Shown: piece after piece, positions 48,418 through 54,624 of the stretch
How the letters are laid out: each line of letters starts with the position of its first letter
Numbering within the stretch: position 1 is the first letter of the stretch
From: Yersinia frederiksenii ATCC 33641
Lineage (GTDB): Bacteria; Pseudomonadota; Gammaproteobacteria; Enterobacterales; Enterobacteriaceae
Direction: 5' to 3'
NCBI RefSeq assembly: GCF_000754805.1
Contig: NZ_KN150731.1
Location: 2,591,886-2,655,885 of the forward strand
DNA: 64,000 nt
The notes under the pieces: model-generated
The model's input: only the letters and a program-made list of their open reading frames with translations
Databases searched by the model: none
Told to the model about the DNA's origin: nothing
Program-made: the position numbers and the translations under genes

Positions 48418-48451
48418 TGACTAAACACCATTTATTAATGGTGTTTAGTCA
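48418..48451. terminator. long hairpin between budB and the bacteriocin exporter
   Basis: TGACTAAACACCAT at 48418-48431 pairs perfectly with ATGGTGTTTAGTCA at 48438-48451 across a six-base loop. The exporter stop codon lies inside it, at 48435-48437. There is no T run on either side, so it may not be an intrinsic terminator. Confidence 0.5.
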
Positions 48452-48980
48452 ATCTAATAACACGATCTGCCGAAGCAATAGTGGAAGGCCGATGCGCGAT
48501 GATCACTCTGGTTATCGCTAACCCAGCAATATTTTTATTAATATAAGCTTCATTTTCTAAATCTAAATGACTGGTTGCTTCATCCATAAACAAAATACCG
48601 GGACGCCGATACAAAGCGCGAGCAATCAATAAACGCTGTTTTTGCCCTCCTGATAAACTTCCTCCCAATTCACCTAATAACGTTTCATATCTCATTGGCA
48701 TCTGCATGATGTCATCATGAATATTGCATTGGCGGGCACAATTAATGATTAATTCACGATCAATTGAGGCGTCAAAACTCGCAATATTCTCTGCAATAGA
48801 GCCGGCAAATAGCCGGTCATCTTGTAATATACAAGCAATGCATCGGCGATAATTATTGATACCAATAACATGGATATCCAGCCCATTGACTAACACATTG
48901 CCCGCACTTGGTTCTAATAATCCGCTCATTAATCTCATTAACGTGGTTTTCCCAACACCAGACGGCCCAATAATTGCCAC
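48435..48980 (-). CDS. detached nucleotide-binding domain of the ABC exporter
   Basis: Open frame of 181 codons from a GTG at 48980. It has Walker A GPSGVGKTT at residues 5-13, signature LSGGQKQR, Walker B GILFMDEATSHLD and the H-loop His in IIAHRPST. It is the C-terminal half of the exporter, in the -1 frame relative to the upstream part. The GTG is only a few bases from GGGAGA, so independent restart is possible but poorly spaced; it would lack the first strands of the domain. Confidence 0.6.
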   Translation of the reverse strand: MAIIGPSGVGKTTLMRLMSGLLEPSAGNVLVNGLDIHVIGINNYRRCIACILQDDRLFAGSIAENIASFDASIDRELIINCARQCNIHDDIMQMPMRYETLLGELGGSLSGGQKQRLLIARALYRRPGILFMDEATSHLDLENEAYINKNIAGLAITRVIIAHRPSTIASADRVIRLTKHH

Positions 48981-50542
48981 ACTCTCCCTGATTTAATATC
49001 AAGATTTATATTGTTAATTATAGGTTTAGATATATTGTCATATTGGTAACTCAAGTTACGAGCCGCAAAAGTCACTGCTGTATTCGGAGGAAATAATAGC
49101 TGAAAAGGCATTTCTTTTTCCGGCTTAGACAGCACGATATCAGCCACCCTCTCATTATGCAGGCTAAGCATGCGCAGTTGCAGCACCATATTAATCAAGC
49201 TACTGGTGCGCTCAGAGAACTGGCCACGGTAAGCGTTGAATGCAATAAACATCCCTAAAGTCATCTGATTATCGATAACTAATGATGCACCCAGCCAAAG
49301 GATAATGACCTGATCGCAGGCAGCAATAAAAGCATTTATCCCACCAAATAGCATATCCAGCCGGGTGATTCGGATACCTGCATTGGTCGTATCTATATTC
49401 AGGTTCAACCAAAATTGAGAGCGGGTTTTTAACAGCCCTAATGCTTTCAGTGTACCAATGCCATACAGCGTCTCCATAAAATGCGAGCTAGCTTTCGCCC
49501 CCTTGACCAGTAATGCTTCGGAGGCTTGTCGGTAGTGGCTATAGGTAACCAGACGCACGATAATATAAATAACAGTGAACCCCAGCACGACCCAAACCAG
49601 CCAACCACCATACAGCAGCATCATAATAAGCACGCCAATGGACATAATGCCGTCGATAATGCTATTTACAATACTGGTCGTAAAAGTAGTCCGAATAGTA
49701 TCAAGTGAACCAAAACGTGATTGAATATCTCCTAACTTGCGCTTTTCGAAATAGACCAGAGGGAGCTTCATCAAATGATCAAACATACCCACTTTCCACT
49801 GTACATCTATCAGTGAGTCCATCACGATAATTGTCCATGAACGCAACATTGCTACGGCAGTTCGGAACACAATAAAAAACAGTAAGCCAGTACAAATTAG
49901 CGCCAATAAGTGATGATCACTGGCTTGAATCACATGATCTAAAACCAATTGAGTGCCTACCGGTATCAGTAAACTAACCGCTTCAATAATTATTGAGAGA
50001 CAGAATATTTTAGTTAACGCTGCTATTAACCCATTAATATTGGAAAATAAATGGCGTAACTGTAACCGACTTTGTTTATCAATCGAGGTGAAATCATTAT
50101 CAGGCCATAACTCCAATGCTATGCCGGTAAAATGCTGAGATAACTCATGCATACCAATAACTCTACGCCCCATGGCTGGATCGTGAATAATAATACGATT
50201 ACGCCGAACGGCAACGAGTACCACAAAGTGATTAAGATCCCAATGCAGAATACTGGGAGTTTTAAGTGCAGAGAGTTCATCAATATCAAGCGATAAAGCA
50301 CGAGTTTGAAATTTAACTGAGCTAGCAATCTCTATTAAAGTATTAAGTGTCGCCCCACGAGCTGAAGCTCCGAATTGCTGCCGTAAATTGAACAAATCAA
50401 TATTCAGACCAAAATAGTGAAATACCATTGCCAGACTTGCCAGACCACATTCAGATGATTCAGTTTGTATAATCTGCGGAACCTTTTTCCTCCAAGTCAA
50501 ATTCAGTTTACTAACAAGAAAGGTAAAAAGATCGTTATTCAT
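48435..50542 (-). pseudogene. C39-peptidase bacteriocin ABC exporter, frameshifted
   Basis: Peptidase-containing ABC transporter of the CvaB/MchF type that cuts double-glycine leaders and exports the core. The N-terminal C39 domain has Gln26, Cys32 (SECGLASLAM), His105 (LNHFVVL) and Asp121, all catalytic residues. Six membrane segments cover about 165-430. The frame breaks just before Walker A. At the minus-strand TCAGGGAGAG (plus 48983-48992) one G appears missing; restoring it gives SGESVAIIGPSGVGKTT and joins the nucleotide-binding domain (48435-48980) with Walker A, LSGGQ and LFMDEATSHLD. The corrected length is 703 codons. The upstream part overlaps the fusion-protein gene by eight bases. 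The break could be a real mutation or a base-call error. Confidence 0.85.
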
Positions 50543-51812
50543 GAACAGGTTCCACCAGGCTTTTTTCCATGTTATAGAAAGGCGAAAACATCCATTGATA
50601 GAGAGATCGTTTTTCGAGGAAAAGGGTCGATTGTGCTTTCATGCCTCCCGTAAGGCGCAGTATTTTTTCTTGGTAGAGGAGTTGAGTTTTATCCAGGACA
50701 ACCAATATTTTATAGTAAGATTCAGCACCCCCCCCTGAATGACGAGGTGGGGTACTGTTGTAACTGGACATCTCTTGAATTGAAGCGGGTACAGTAGAAA
50801 GTGTTTCAATGCGGCCGGAGAACTGACCAAATTTTTCGAAAGGAAAAGCATCGTAGCGCACATTAACTCGATCGCCAGCAGAAATATAAGGTATAGCTCC
50901 ATTAGGTAGCCAAAGTACTAAATAATACAGAGCATCAGAACCAGGTATTAATTGTGCCAAACTGTCCCCCACATTGACCATTTGCCCAGTTGTTACGCTA
51001 AGTGATTCTATTCGTCCATCAACTGGTGCATTAATCACTAATATTCCTGTGGCATCAGTTTCAGATAATTGCCTTTGTAAATTGCCATATTGCAATTCAT
51101 ATTGTGAAATCTGGTTATCAAAATCAGCAGCACGGGTGACCATTTCACTTTCTAAATTAATAATCTGTAGTGTTTCTTGCATATTTTGGTTATATAAGCT
51201 GTGAGAGGCTATTTGCTGCTGATAATAAGCATAGGTTTGATTATTGACTTGTTCTTTAGTGATAAATCCTTTACGTAGATACTCACCATAACTATTCACT
51301 GTTTTACGCATAGACTCAACGTTTCTTTGGCTATCTTTGACCAATTGAGCCGATTGCTGATAAACAGCTTCATATTTATTTTTCTGTACTGACATATTAC
51401 TCAGAGTAACATGTTTATTACTCTGTAAATTTCGGATAATACTCTGAACCTGAACCAGTTGTTGTTTAATTGCTTGCTGGTTATTTTGACTTACAATCCC
51501 AGAACATGTCACCTTACTGATGTCAATGTGGTAAATCGCCTGTCCTTTTATGACTTCATCGCCGACATTAACCAAACTTTTAGTAATAAACCCTTGCTGA
51601 GAAGAGAAGATATTAATTGGTCGGGGGATTGTTGTAATCTCACCATGAACATTGACTCTTCGAGTATAACTTCCCAGTATAATAAAATGAACAAAAATAA
51701 AAATAATTAGGAATGATATCACTGCAACAATCCATGCTGGGATACCAGAGATAAGTAATGCTTTACCTATCCATTTTGTTTGCTGATAATCAAAGGCTTC
51801 CTGCCTAAACAT
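50535..51812 (-). CDS. HlyD-family membrane fusion protein for bacteriocin export (CvaA-like)
   Basis: Periplasmic adaptor that links the ABC exporter to TolC. The 425-residue product has one N-terminal membrane segment at about 25-52 (a run of Ile, Val and Phe), a lipoyl/barrel half starting RVNVHGEITTIPRPINIFS, a long coiled coil at about 115-265 and a second barrel half (VDGRIESLSVTTGQMVNVG). It is of the CvaA/MchE type. Its stop overlaps the start of the exporter gene by eight bases. It lies 121 bp after the microcin V-like precursor gene. Confidence 0.88.
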   Translation of the reverse strand: MFRQEAFDYQQTKWIGKALLISGIPAWIVAVISFLIIFIFVHFIILGSYTRRVNVHGEITTIPRPINIFSSQQGFITKSLVNVGDEVIKGQAIYHIDISKVTCSGIVSQNNQQAIKQQLVQVQSIIRNLQSNKHVTLSNMSVQKNKYEAVYQQSAQLVKDSQRNVESMRKTVNSYGEYLRKGFITKEQVNNQTYAYYQQQIASHSLYNQNMQETLQIINLESEMVTRAADFDNQISQYELQYGNLQRQLSETDATGILVINAPVDGRIESLSVTTGQMVNVGDSLAQLIPGSDALYYLVLWLPNGAIPYISAGDRVNVRYDAFPFEKFGQFSGRIETLSTVPASIQEMSSYNSTPPRHSGGGAESYYKILVVLDKTQLLYQEKILRLTGGMKAQSTLFLEKRSLYQWMFSPFYNMEKSLVEPVHE

Positions 51813-51933
51813 ACACTATCCTATTAGGATTTCATTAAAAAAAACCTAAACCATTAATAAAAAAACACCATATTAAGCATCGGGAAACCCAAATATCTAA
51901 ATATGATGTATTGATTTCATCCCTAATAGCTAT

Positions 51934-52260
51934 TTATCGACTACAACTTATTCCTCCCGTCATCCGGCAAATATAATAATTATCAGGACCACTCAAGTAA
52001 GCAGGCCGACCCAATGTGGCGGGATCATAGCTCACGGACGGAATAGTAATTTGAGGTGCTGAATTAATGACGTGAGAGACACCATCATAAGCTTTGCCTC
52101 CGGCCAAACTACCAAGAGATGCACCTCCTGCAGCACCTGCTGGCCCTCCAAGCCGGCCTCCTATGACTGTTCCGGCTAGTGCACCTGAACTCTGAGCTAA
52201 CTCCCTTCCTGAATTACCACCACTGACATGTTCAGTTTCTAATGCTGATAATCTTCTCAT
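51934..52260 (-). CDS. microcin V (colicin V)-like precursor peptide
   Basis: A 108-residue precursor with a double-glycine leader, MRRLSALETEHVSGG, and a 93-residue core. The start at 52260 has AGGAG seven bases upstream; the frame open to 52290 has none. The core begins NSGRELAQSSG and has a long Gly/Ala-rich stretch with GxxxG spacing (GALAGTVIGGRLGGPAGAAG), then KAYDG. This parallels microcin V (ASGRDIAMAIGTLSG, then AGGAIYDY). It ends in CRMTGGISCSR, a Cys-x7-Cys pair that could form the C-terminal disulfide found in microcin V. The exporter's C39 domain should cut after GG. Confidence 0.82.
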   Translation of the reverse strand: MRRLSALETEHVSGGNSGRELAQSSGALAGTVIGGRLGGPAGAAGGASLGSLAGGKAYDGVSHVINSAPQITIPSVSYDPATLGRPAYLSGPDNYYICRMTGGISCSR

Positions 52261-52306
52261 ATTACAACTCCTTTTATTGAGATACATCAATTACATGTAA
52301 TTAATG

Positions 52307-52543
52307 TTATTTTTTTCTTATCCTTAAATAAGCATCTATAAACTTCTTCATACCATCAAAAAATGGAATGAAAGTACAAATAGCAGCAAGAAAAATAGAA
52401 ATATATATCTTATTCCCAACTTCTGGCAATCTACCATCAAGTATAAAACTTGATAAATACAGTATTGTCATATAAAAAAATGTATAAAATAGGATTTTCA
52501 TCACAATATTCAAGCATGCAATAACAATCACATAATTATTCAT
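52307..52543 (-). CDS. small membrane protein, candidate microcin immunity protein
   Basis: Seventy-eight residues, with AGGATG seven bases before the ATG. Two hydrophobic segments cover about 6-34 and 44-62, and the end is basic (YLRIRKK). I do not recognise a sequence family. Its length, two-helix layout and position directly upstream of the precursor match the microcin V immunity gene cvi, which also encodes 78 residues and precedes cvaC. Immunity function is inferred from this alone. Confidence 0.6.
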   Translation of the reverse strand: MNNYVIVIACLNIVMKILFYTFFYMTILYLSSFILDGRLPEVGNKIYISIFLAAICTFIPFFDGMKKFIDAYLRIRKK

Positions 52544-52604
52544 ATGAACATCCTATCAGACTAAATGAGAATGCATAGCATGATGCAACCCAATAAACAG
52601 TAAA

Positions 52605-52775
52605 TCACAATGATTTTATTTGTTTTATTTTACTCTTATATTCATTCAATATATCACTATTGAAGTTTATAGAGTTCAAAAAATCAAAATATTTTGCAGC
52701 TTGACTGATATAATTATTATCAAACAGAAGAATAGAAATAAGTGCATCTATATGATACCCTTCACTATGTATCAT
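52605..52775 (-). pseudogene. C-terminal tail of the glycosyltransferase behind an in-frame TGA
   Basis: Directly after the TGA at 52776-52778, in the same frame, 56 more sense codons follow before a second TGA. They read MIHSEGYHIDALISILLFDN, then a helical SQAAKYFDFLNS and a Lys-rich end. The segment resembles a TPR-type helix pair and would align with the C-terminal region of SunS, from memory. With it the enzyme would be 459 residues rather than 402 (SunS is about 420). The internal TGA looks like a nonsense mutation. Confidence 0.5.
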
Positions 52776-53984
52776 TCAATATTGTGGATCAATGTTTCGC
52801 TCTCTATATAGTATAGTTTTATCTAATAACTCTTTATACTTTGATTTTAATTCAACAATGTTAATTAGACACTTATAATAATATGAGTTACTATTTTCAG
52901 GAAGAAAACAATTCATAATGTCTGTTATAATATCTACATCATCAAACTTACTTTGTCTCAAATTATTCTTAGCAAGAAGATCTAACAATGCGAAAGTGAA
53001 TTCATCTTCTCTAATATTGCTTTTTGAAAAATCATATTGCTCATTTAATATAAGTGAAGATTTTATTCCTACTTCAGCATTTAATAAATCTATGACTTCA
53101 ATTCCATCTCGATAGTAAAAATATTTCCATCTTAAATTATTTGGCTCCAGTAACATCATTTTACTCAAAAGAGATAAATTCCTATCTGTTTTTCTTTTGT
53201 TTTTTACAATTTCATGCATGTAACCATCATGAATAAAAGTAATATTAACAGAAATATAGTATGGCTTTGTGTTATTAATTCTTGGCTCTTCATGAACCAG
53301 TCCAAAATAGTTTATATCTGTATTGTTCAAAAAAAATCGTCTAACTGTTGTGACATTATAACCATTGTGGTTAGAAATAAAAGGGCATATAACCATTTCA
53401 TTTTTTATAGATAAAAACTGTAAAATTAATAATATTTCCTTTACTTCATTATAATCTCCCTTTCCATCTAAATACTCGTCAGCATCAATAAACATAAGCC
53501 AATCTTTTTTTGCTTTTCTTTTTGCAAAATTGCGGGCATGAGAGAAATCATTCTCCCAAGGAGTACTATAGGTTTTTATCTTATCGCTAACAATACTATT
53601 AATTATATCCATAGTACTATCAGTAGACCCTGTATCTACAATCACAATCTCGTCGACATAATCCAAAATACTCTCAATGCAACGGTAAATACATCGCTCT
53701 TCATCTTTAACGATAATAACTGCAGATATAGTAGGCAAGGATACTTGATATATTCGTTCGAATAAAACTAAAATATCATTTAGTATCTTATCAAGATATA
53801 TATCATGAAATGTATTATCCATGACAACAAAACAATTCAATCTTGGGTCAATTTCTAAAATAAATGAAACCTTATCCAACCAATTATTTAATAAATTTAT
53901 TTTATCACTTTCAGCAATGGAATTTAAAATGAAATCCTTAAGCCTAATAAGATAGTTTGAATTAAAATAATTAATATCACTCAT
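52776..53984 (-). CDS. SunS-like peptide S-glycosyltransferase (GT2)
   Basis: A 402-residue family 2 glycosyltransferase. The GT-A fold starts near residue 85 (ISAVIIVKDEERCIYRCIES), followed by VDTGSTDSTMDI at 116-127, WENDFSHARNFA near 143-154, the metal site FIDADEYLDG with DAD at 167-169, then RRFFLNN, LVHEEPRI and LEPNNLRWKYFYYRDG. From memory each segment has a close counterpart in SunS of the sublancin cluster (NDFSYARN, FIDADN, GKVHEEP, RLEPENPKWLFFFGRE). SunS moves glucose from UDP-glucose onto a Cys of the peptide. The gene lies 66 bp after a leader-peptide gene with one core Cys. A helical domain fills 280-402, where an in-frame TGA truncates it. Confidence 0.8.
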   Translation of the reverse strand: MSDINYFNSNYLIRLKDFILNSIAESDKINLLNNWLDKVSFILEIDPRLNCFVVMDNTFHDIYLDKILNDILVLFERIYQVSLPTISAVIIVKDEERCIYRCIESILDYVDEIVIVDTGSTDSTMDIINSIVSDKIKTYSTPWENDFSHARNFAKRKAKKDWLMFIDADEYLDGKGDYNEVKEILLILQFLSIKNEMVICPFISNHNGYNVTTVRRFFLNNTDINYFGLVHEEPRINNTKPYYISVNITFIHDGYMHEIVKNKRKTDRNLSLLSKMMLLEPNNLRWKYFYYRDGIEVIDLLNAEVGIKSSLILNEQYDFSKSNIREDEFTFALLDLLAKNNLRQSKFDDVDIITDIMNCFLPENSNSYYYKCLINIVELKSKYKELLDKTILYRERNIDPQY

Positions 53985-54050
53985 ATGTACATACCAGATA
54001 TATTGCAGGCATAATTCTAATTTAAATAGTATTATGCCTTACTTTAAAAG

Positions 54051-54257
54051 TTATCTCTGTGTACTAAACCCACCCCCCGTATAGCTTGGATTTGGATCGC
54101 CATAGAACCCACCAGGCCATGAACAGGAGCGAACAGCATCCATTACCCCGCCCCAAGTCATACTCGGCCCCGGATTGTAATCACTACTCCCACCAGATAT
54201 TTGAGCTAGAATTACTTCATCTTTAATTTCACGCAGTAAATCTTTAGGTTTCCTCAT
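54051..54257 (-). CDS. double-glycine precursor peptide, candidate glycocin
   Basis: Sixty-eight residues: a leader of 23 ending ILAQISGG (Leu at -7, Ile at -4) and a core of 45. GGAG about nine bases before the ATG at 54257 favours it over the ATG at 54272, which has no ribosome site. The core is rich in Gly, Ser, Pro and aromatic residues, with two Trp, three Tyr and a single Cys at core position 22 in RSCSWPGG. A lone Cys beside a SunS-like enzyme suggests S-glycosylation there. Known glycocins usually also have four Cys in two disulfides, which this lacks. I know of no named homologue. Confidence 0.75.
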   Translation of the reverse strand: MRKPKDLLREIKDEVILAQISGGSSDYNPGPSMTWGGVMDAVRSCSWPGGFYGDPNPSYTGGGFSTQR

Positions 54258-54283
54258 AGATATATTCTCCATTATTTATTAAA

Positions 54284-54624
54284 TTATTTAAGTAAACCAA
54301 TAAATCTAATAACTCTATCGGTGTCATTACAACTATATTCTAGTGTAGTAAGATAGATAACGTTTCTTTTATCATATTCTCCAAGATAGAATTGCTTTTG
54401 TAAACCTGGAGTGCAAATGATAAAATCAGATATCCTTTTTAATTCCTCTATATTAGATTCTGATGGATCAAGTATTACATTGCAGTTTATTCTTTTCTTT
54501 TCTAAGTCATCATTTATTTTTTTACATACTTATCTTCTTTACACCACCCAAATATAATCGGCGTAAAAAGAGCTCTTCCCAGCATTGGGCTTGAGTTATA
54601 AACAAACACCCCAACCTTTTTCAT
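54284..54624 (-). pseudogene. small alpha/beta protein of unknown function, frameshifted at an A7 run
   Basis: From the ATG at 54624, with AGG eight bases upstream, the frame reads MKKVGVFVYNSSPMLGRALF and FTPIIFGWCKEDKYV, then stops. In the -1 frame it continues KKRINCNVILDPSESN, LKRISDFIICTPGLQKQ and ends RVIRFIGLLK at 54284. The break is at seven As on the coding strand (plus 54517-54523); eight would give one 113-residue product. The strand-helix alternation suggests a flavodoxin- or IIB-like fold, but I do not recognise the family. It is the first gene of the bacteriocin cluster and could be accessory or regulatory. Confidence 0.5.

Follow-up and report, generated by a model that had tools for sequence, protein, structure and literature searches.

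The window analysed here is a 64,000-nt stretch of the genome of Yersinia frederiksenii ATCC 33641 (contig NZ_KN150731.1, positions 2,591,886 to 2,655,885). At positions 48418-54624 it contains a block of genes, all on the minus strand, which is quite probably a two-peptide bacteriocin locus consisting of a microcin V-type part and a separate cassette with a SunS-type glycosyltransferase (GT), and which we propose to be working in intact relatives. The cassette comprises three genes, here called the triad: the head gene of the block (the companion), a gene for a glycocin-like peptide with a Cys-Ser (CS) motif, and the GT gene. Two further genomes of the genus, used as open references (G166, locus L046, and G162, locus L047), carry the whole block with open frames, with a companion of 114-117 aa, a peptide of 68-70 aa, a GT of 452-470 aa and an exporter of 699 aa; gene order and flanking genes are the same as in the window. 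Because the block is open and syntenic in these two genomes and the core of its first peptide is strongly constrained, we regard it as real and beyond chance.

A preliminary description of the window had listed a leftward block with two double-glycine peptides, a SunS-like GT, a 78-residue protein, a CvaA-like protein and a C39 exporter. All of them are indeed there, on the minus strand (Table 1), and the entries are correct; the companion at 54284-54624 and the interruptions of the GT and exporter genes were missing from the list, although its asking for a strain whose genes are intact may allude to the latter. The description had also read the locus as a hybrid of glycocin and microcin V-like systems, a reading that would suffer if the GT grouped with general GT2 enzymes or if related loci lacked a peptide gene. 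Neither was found, and the reading stands; a working copy in the window, however, cannot be assumed, as three of its genes are interrupted.

Gene content, homology, conservation, co-occurrence and lesions, as observed, suggest the following mechanism, in which the sugar, its site, export, killing and immunity are predicted from sequence. A fixed chromosomal site would carry a class II (microcin V-type) microcin together with an immunity protein of 78 residues and an exporter of the CvaA/CvaB type, with the cassette in front. In intact relatives, the GT would transfer a sugar from a UDP-sugar to the peptide core, most likely to the Cys within the invariant Cys-Ser. The precursor would then be cleaved after the double glycine by the C39 exporter, and secretion would proceed via CvaA and TolC, the TolC dependence being predicted by analogy to the microcin V system. 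The product would kill related bacteria and the companion would protect the producer, the core being probably the toxic part and the tails serving uptake. In the window's genome, cassette and exporter are decaying.

The glycosyltransferase and its neighbours

The window GT matches Glycos_transf_2 (E=2e-18) and, over residues 70-390, the SunS family TIGR04195 (176.5 bits). The next NCBIfam family reaches 35 bits, so that SunS, proposed earlier as the hidden Markov model to be searched, is the best family by far, even if its cut-off of 350 is not reached. TIGR04195 matches all nine rows of the GT alignment (A1). The closest solved chains by sequence are 7msk (E=2.9e-40), which we take to be ThuS (its PDB name is only Glyco_trans_2-like), SunS 7msn (2e-38) and 7msp, followed by GmaR. 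A maximum-likelihood tree of 35 rows (without L018, L011, L081 and the GT of G709, which is in two frames) places 15 glycocin-type enzymes including SunS and AsmA on one side of a branch with support 81/75; these 15 together with two enzymes of another bacteriocin-like type (17 rows) are separated at 96/93. The window GT thus groups with SunS and AsmA, not with the general GT2 rows used. Furthermore, its residues P201, E280, W286 and R292 are found in at least 14 of the 15 glycocin-type enzymes and in at most two of the 18 general GT2 rows. Note that these four markers were chosen after inspection and that some of the general rows are short, which lowers their counts; the markers are also present in the two GTs of the other bacteriocin-like type. 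The DxD aspartates D167 and D169 are retained. With modest support, the window GT can be assigned, at the family level, as a putative SunS/GccA-type peptide glycosyltransferase rather than a general GT2 enzyme. A named scan of genome contigs with the GT alignment gave mostly general GT2 enzymes and no close named relative among the matches listed, and viral contigs gave no GT match. A GT search of 149 genomes (91 with a match) likewise returned mostly general GT2 enzymes, and its result was not used.

Twelve triad loci were examined: those of the window, G166, G162, G043, G106, G553, G687, G709 (with the GT in two frames), Edwardsiella tarda, Pantoea agglomerans, Photobacterium damselae and Enterococcus faecalis pUAMSEL2. 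The triads of Edwardsiella, Pantoea, Photobacterium and E. faecalis are on plasmids, and G043, G106, G553, G687 and G709 are five genomes of the window's GTDB family. The CS-motif triad thus recurs in two phyla. In tblastn searches of plasmids, the GT matched 116 records (E <= 1e-12), 106 of them from Enterococcus, and the companion 21 records (E <= 0.01), 14 of them from Enterococcus. We surveyed 392 genomes of the window's GTDB family with a GT profile of 408 positions. A GT was found at E <= 1e-35 in 19 genomes, and six of these matches span nearly the whole profile (that of G709 in two pieces). All six adjoin both a peptide and a companion. The remaining 13 matches end at profile position 284 or earlier, and none of these 13 genomes holds the peptide. 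The peptide itself occurs in eight family genomes (in G641 as a partial leader only), with the companion adjacent in every case. GT fragments persist in G641 and G736, and G639 has peptide and companion with no GT within the stretch.

This pattern bears on the possibility that the GT modifies a surface polysaccharide or flagellin and stands next to the peptide by chance. Admittedly, GT2 enzymes are common, and one close solved relative is GmaR, presumably a flagellin-related glycosyltransferase. Still, with peptide and companion beside each of the six full-length GTs and the same arrangement in two phyla, we consider a chance adjacency extremely improbable and retain the peptide as the predicted substrate.

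The locus and its chromosomal site

Table 1. Features of the block in the window (positions in the window).
Feature	Position	Strand	Basis
Companion gene, broken (frames split)	54284..54624	-	Profile matches G000:C1:2646175-2646474 and 2646381-2646509, internal stops; alignment A2
Glycocin-like precursor, 68 residues, leader MRKPKDLLREIKDEVILAQISGG, 45-residue core	54051..54257	-	Open reading frame (ORF); alignment A3
Putative SunS-type peptide GT, 402 aa, in-frame stop	52776..53984	-	TIGR04195, PDB matches, tree, marker residues
C-terminal remnant of the GT gene, 56 open codons, same frame past the stop	52605..52775	-	ORF
Hydrophobic protein, 78 aa, candidate immunity protein for the microcin V-like peptide	52307..52543	-	ORF; homologues
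108-aa precursor, microcin V-like (class II), with double-glycine leader MRRLSALETEHVSGG and two C-terminal Cys	51934..52260	-	Pfam MccV, 26.2 bits
CvaA-like membrane-fusion protein (HlyD family), 425 aa	50535..51812	-	HlyD_3, 7.2e-14
CvaB-like exporter, first piece: C39 peptidase and transmembrane part	48938..50542	-	PF03412 (Peptidase_C39), 1.9e-35; PF00664 (ABC_membrane), 1e-48
CvaB-like exporter, second piece, other frame: nucleotide-binding domain	48435..48980	-	PF00005 (ABC_tran), 1.1e-26
Terminator-like stem, 15 pairs, at block end	48418..48451	-	Consensus scan

The window's locus is decayed, with three interrupted genes. The GT gene has an in-frame stop at 52776, about 50 residues short of its relatives, and the remnant past the stop is 72-73% identical to the C-termini of the GTs in L046 and L047. 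The exporter gene changes frame at the nucleotide-binding domain, whereas it is a single 699-aa frame in both reference loci. The two pieces of the companion are 80% and 88% identical to that of L046. With these lesions, the window's copy cannot be assumed to be functional. The dN/dS of the window's GT piece against the open copies (0.15-0.20) is no higher than that of the open copies against each other (0.20), and therefore the GT break may be recent. Six terminator-like sites were found in the region against 2.6 (sd 2.2) expected from shuffles; a promoter scan gave 28 sites against 32.4 expected.

The block adjoins three genes, which we take to be asd, marC and gntK, in the window as well as in G166, G162, G150, G167 and G149, and the contig of G170 stops before reaching them. 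Among 25 genomes of the genus, the window counted, the microcin V-like peptide is present in seven, the companion in three and a GT at >=60% identity in three; two more GT matches (E <= 1e-9) are only 32-35% identical. It thus seems that the companion-peptide-GT cassette was added to a microcin locus. Other genomes also show frequent decay at this chromosomal site: in G170 the exporter is interrupted (pieces of 447 and 247 aa), the G167 stretch holds a CvaA fragment without an exporter match, and G149 has a split microcin V-like peptide. A megablast search of E. coli genomes gave no match to the block.

In G149, a different double-glycine-type ORF of 86 aa (L050:4894-5154) occupies the place that the cassette has in G166, G162 and the window; the slot may therefore exchange peptides.

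Peptide cores, tails and candidate immunity proteins

The first peptide of the window is 85-88% identical to its copies in the two genus genomes, and its core has one Cys, in the motif CSWPGGFY (an alternative upstream ATG at 54272 is a less likely start). Within the genus, 1-3 of the 45 core residues vary at a dS of 0.76-0.95, and the resulting dN/dS of 0.01-0.05 indicates that it is strongly constrained. No Pfam family matched this peptide or the 78-residue protein. Across a set of 13 peptides (the 12 triads and G639), Cys-Ser is kept in all 13, and the preceding Trp is replaced by Tyr in G553. Cys-Ser was partly selected for, as the peptides of G639, G709, G553 and G687 were first found by a motif search demanding C-[ST]; a profile search demanding no residue recovered the same genomes. 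The number of Cys per core is one in five peptides (three of the genus, P. agglomerans and G709), two in another five, and three or four in the remaining three.

The identity of the sugar site can be argued from these cores. If the GT acted on Ser/Thr (O-linked, e.g. on the Ser of Cys-Ser), or on Cys and Ser/Thr, the product would be an O- or mixed O/S-glycocin. Such a linkage would suit the Ser that follows Cys in all 13 peptides, and peptides with at least two Cys could bind them in disulfides; moreover, related enzymes are described as making both O- and S-links (PMC12457901). In the five single-Cys peptides, on the other hand, the Cys would be free for modification, and SunS is among the closest solved enzymes. 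We regard O- or mixed glycosylation as rather unlikely and keep the Cys as the most probable site.

Several relatives carry the core on tails of known microcins. The C-terminal stretch of the G043 peptide matches 9nn6_B, the receptor-binding domain of microcin V in its structure on Cir (E=4.3e-10; Pfam MccV, 50.9 bits), and the G639 peptide shows a weaker match to the microcin V tail (19.1 bits, below the cut-off of 27). Cir specificity is reported to be conferred by the 32 C-terminal residues of microcin V (PMC12511343). Three further peptides, those of P. agglomerans, G709 and G553, end in Ser-rich tails. MchC (annotated, or 48-52% identical) is found near all three of them and near none of the ten other peptide loci, the window included (Fisher p=0.0035, a value that ignores relatedness, the peptides of P. 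agglomerans and G709 being near-copies, and that refers to fetched flanks only). A HlyC-type acyltransferase is present at two of these three loci; at the third, the sequence read stops shortly after MchC. Ser-rich tails and MchC are hallmarks of siderophore microcins. These observations suggest a single warhead that can be combined with different uptake tails, and, as the same core is joined to tails of known microcins in relatives, the core is probably the toxic part.

The cassettes with Ser-rich peptide tails near MchC are L060:6992-15092, L175 and L177. The last also has large ORFs which by appearance resemble peptide-synthetase pieces, perhaps for a siderophore. Beside the G043 triad with its microcin V-tail peptide lies a gene for a TonB-dependent receptor (L052:11813-13906; NF010012, 1004.5 bits). 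We rejected its assignment as CirA, because it scores above the cut-off of NF010012 and, with 337.5 bits, under that of CirA.

Open companion homologues in relatives have 112-128 aa (e.g., L046:7398-7742, L047:3867-4220), and each of the 13 peptide loci used has a companion immediately next to the peptide. It is, however, found in 18 of the 392 family genomes, ten of which are without a detected peptide (the gene is broken in G141 and partial in G020 and G556). Seven peptide-less copies in six further genomes are surrounded by genes that look unrelated, whereas the copy in G736 has an exporter alongside; companions on Duffyella and Pantoea sp. At-9b plasmids also lie amid unrelated-looking genes. 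In the wider class only one of 369 genomes, the window itself, has the companion, and viral contigs gave one partial match. A gene that is always beside the peptide, yet also occurs alone, looks like an immunity gene, and we infer that the companion is a candidate immunity protein of the glycocin-like peptide.

Two of five companions scanned match Pfam PTS_IIB below its cut-off of 23.6 (E. tarda, 18.8 bits; L046, 13.2 bits), with no PTS_IIB match for those of G162, G106 and E. faecalis. Profile-profile comparison (hhalign) was made with an alignment of 21 companions, from which L176, L182, L183, L184 and L185 were left out (partial or broken, other frame picked, or not listed). Against seven EIIB domains from the window's genome the probability was 38%, and against four of these it was 55% (score 29.4, 89 columns end to end). 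The controls for this score were lower: at most 19.4 in 200 column shuffles, 10.4 with the reversed alignment and 12.1 with an unrelated kinase alignment. The best match of the companion profile among PDB sequences had E=0.038. The companion thus seems weakly EIIB-like. EIIB accepts phosphate on a Cys; at the place aligned with this residue, its position being the one we take for it, 20 of the 21 companions have no Cys when inspected by eye, and L179 has one.

These features could also fit a biosynthetic helper, serving in leader binding or in sugar supply, possibly linked to the phosphotransferase system (PTS), instead of immunity. The constant adjacency to the peptide, the weak EIIB likeness and the fact that the companion is missing from four other Gram-positive glycocin-type stretches agree with this role, which we hold possible though doubtful: a helper would be useless in the ten of 18 companion genomes without a detected peptide (some of these copies being partial or broken), and the same applies to the lone copies among unrelated-looking genes, plasmid-borne ones included. 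Immunity accordingly remains our favoured role for the companion. As sublancin is linked to the glucose PTS, a PTS may be guessed, weakly, as the target of the peptide. We tentatively envisage, as a reading rather less likely than not, a class of glycosylated microcins with a CS warhead, a sugar added by a SunS-type enzyme, an EIIB-like immunity protein without the phospho-Cys, swappable tails (Cir-binding, siderophore or none) for delivery into Gram-negative cells and a sugar-PTS target, the module being also used by enterococci.

The second peptide matches Pfam MccV (E=1.2e-5) just below the cut-off of 27 and only over the N-terminal half of the profile, and its L046 copy gave no match to plasmids. 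Homologues of the 78-aa hydrophobic protein adjoin the MccV-like peptide also in loci without a GT, which makes this protein a likely partner of the microcin V-like peptide and its candidate immunity protein. The candidate immunity role given to it in the preliminary description thus applies to this peptide; for the glycocin-like one, the candidate is the companion that was not listed there. Along its full length, the fusion protein shares 47.8% identity with HlyD-family proteins encoded next to cvaB on plasmids of E. coli. A C39 exporter is found above the Pfam cut-off in all eight peptide genomes tested (the window apart), but also in eight of 14 controls; in the fetched flanks it is present at nine of the 12 triads, namely those of the window, G166, G162, G106 (a piece, at the contig end), G709, E. 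tarda, P. agglomerans, P. damselae and E. faecalis. One could imagine that both Yersinia peptides, which share an exporter and one block, form a single two-component bacteriocin. We think this very unlikely, since other genomes of the genus have the microcin V-like peptide but no cassette, and no such peptide was found in the stretches read around the other nine triads. Two separate peptides are therefore the preferred reading.

Two kinds of genes of other modified-peptide systems were also seen. The Edwardsiella plasmid with the triad also has, about 5 kb away from it, microcin B17-type genes (McbB family, TOMM precursor; L059:1-1539). A second putative type of glycosylated microcin is found in L071:5024-11386 (Enterobacter sp. 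R1(2018)), L054:6210-12696 (G152), L056:5339-11714, L203 and L204, with an ORF of 80-85 aa, a GT with a TcdA/TcdB-type catalytic domain, a SunS-like GT2 enzyme (the two GTs are fused in L054) and CvaA/CvaB-like exporters. Its peptide, Ser/Gly-rich and with a double-glycine-type leader, is seen in L071, L054 and L056, L203 and L204 being too short to show it. The plasmid stretch of G152, which belongs to the window's GTDB genus, matches Yersinia bercovieri NZ_CP124241.1, a plasmid typed as conjugative, at 99.7% identity over 10,001 bases.

Weighing the reading against known systems

Several observations weigh against a glycosylated bacteriocin made by a SunS-type enzyme. Besides the three interrupted genes of the window's copy, the GT lies far under the SunS equivalog cut-off and hence is not an equivalog (the full-length relative in L046, with 180.1 bits, is also below it), the branch uniting the 15 GTs is modestly supported, and its SunS and AsmA rows are long. 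The Yersinia core, with its single Cys, would have no internal disulfides, which are described for all experimentally characterised glycocins (PMC12457901). Furthermore, no homologue of Bdb (sublancin) or of the ASM1 thioredoxin-family oxidoreductases was found in the block; owing to the single Cys and this lack, the peptide is not filed as an ordinary glycocin. Sublancin, ASM1, V583 and UK045, the four other glycocin-type stretches from Gram-positive bacteria, all lack the companion, so it is not a general glycocin gene. Finally, no exporter was found in the fetched flank at three of the 12 triads (G043, G553 and G687).

Sugar-decorated bacteriocins of this kind are best known from Gram-positive hosts. 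A 2024 review states that Gram-negative genomes encode glycocin clusters, and the broad idea is therefore not new. As of 2022, ten glycocins had been experimentally identified, from Bacillota; the same source describes a glycocin-type peptide of E. faecalis with a mass gain of 324 Da, which may be of the pUAMSEL2 type (PMC9576775). According to a 2022 survey of Enterobacterales, 51.9% of Yersiniaceae species have microcin matches; the terms glycosyl and glycocin do not occur in its main text (PMC9746304). In the open-licence literature searched we did not find a triad with companion, single-Cys core and microcin tails, nor, in the literature searched, MchC-type features combined with a SunS-type GT. 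Conserved in Gram-negative bacteria, a cassette that combines a one-Cys core with a candidate immunity gene of its own and with tails known from microcins would offer a directly testable route across the outer membrane for a glycosylated peptide. It would link two bacteriocin classes so far considered separately, and its enzymes are new candidates for peptide glycosyltransferases.

Among the known systems, the sublancin 168 cluster (SPbeta, L187) resembles the block in its double-glycine precursor, C39 exporter and same-clade GT (window GT and SunS are 31.8-37% identical). Unlike the block, it has two Bdb oxidoreductases; the block, in turn, has a one-Cys core, an HlyD-type fusion protein for two membranes and the companion, which is absent from L187. 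The Glycocin F family/ASM1 cluster (Lactobacillus plantarum pA1_ASM1, L189) likewise has a same-clade GT (32.5% identity) next to an ABC exporter gene, but differs in two thioredoxin-family genes, a LytTR regulator and a stretch without the companion. E. faecalis pUAMSEL2 (L063), for which no characterisation was found, has the order companion-peptide-GT-exporter, with a peptide 49% identical to that of the window (A3) and a companion 38% identical to that of L046 (A2); unlike the block, it has a Gram-positive exporter partner, two Cys and an S41 peptidase gene upstream. The MchC-type siderophore (class IIb) microcins share with three cassette relatives the Ser-rich tail and nearby MchC, and with two of them the HlyC-type acyltransferase, features not present in the window. 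The microcin V system has, to our knowledge, no glycosyltransferase, and the match of the window's second peptide to the MccV profile is confined to the N-terminal half of that profile. In part this peptide, and further the small immunity-type protein and the CvaA/CvaB-type exporter, resemble microcin V, and the G043 peptide joins a microcin V tail to the CS core.

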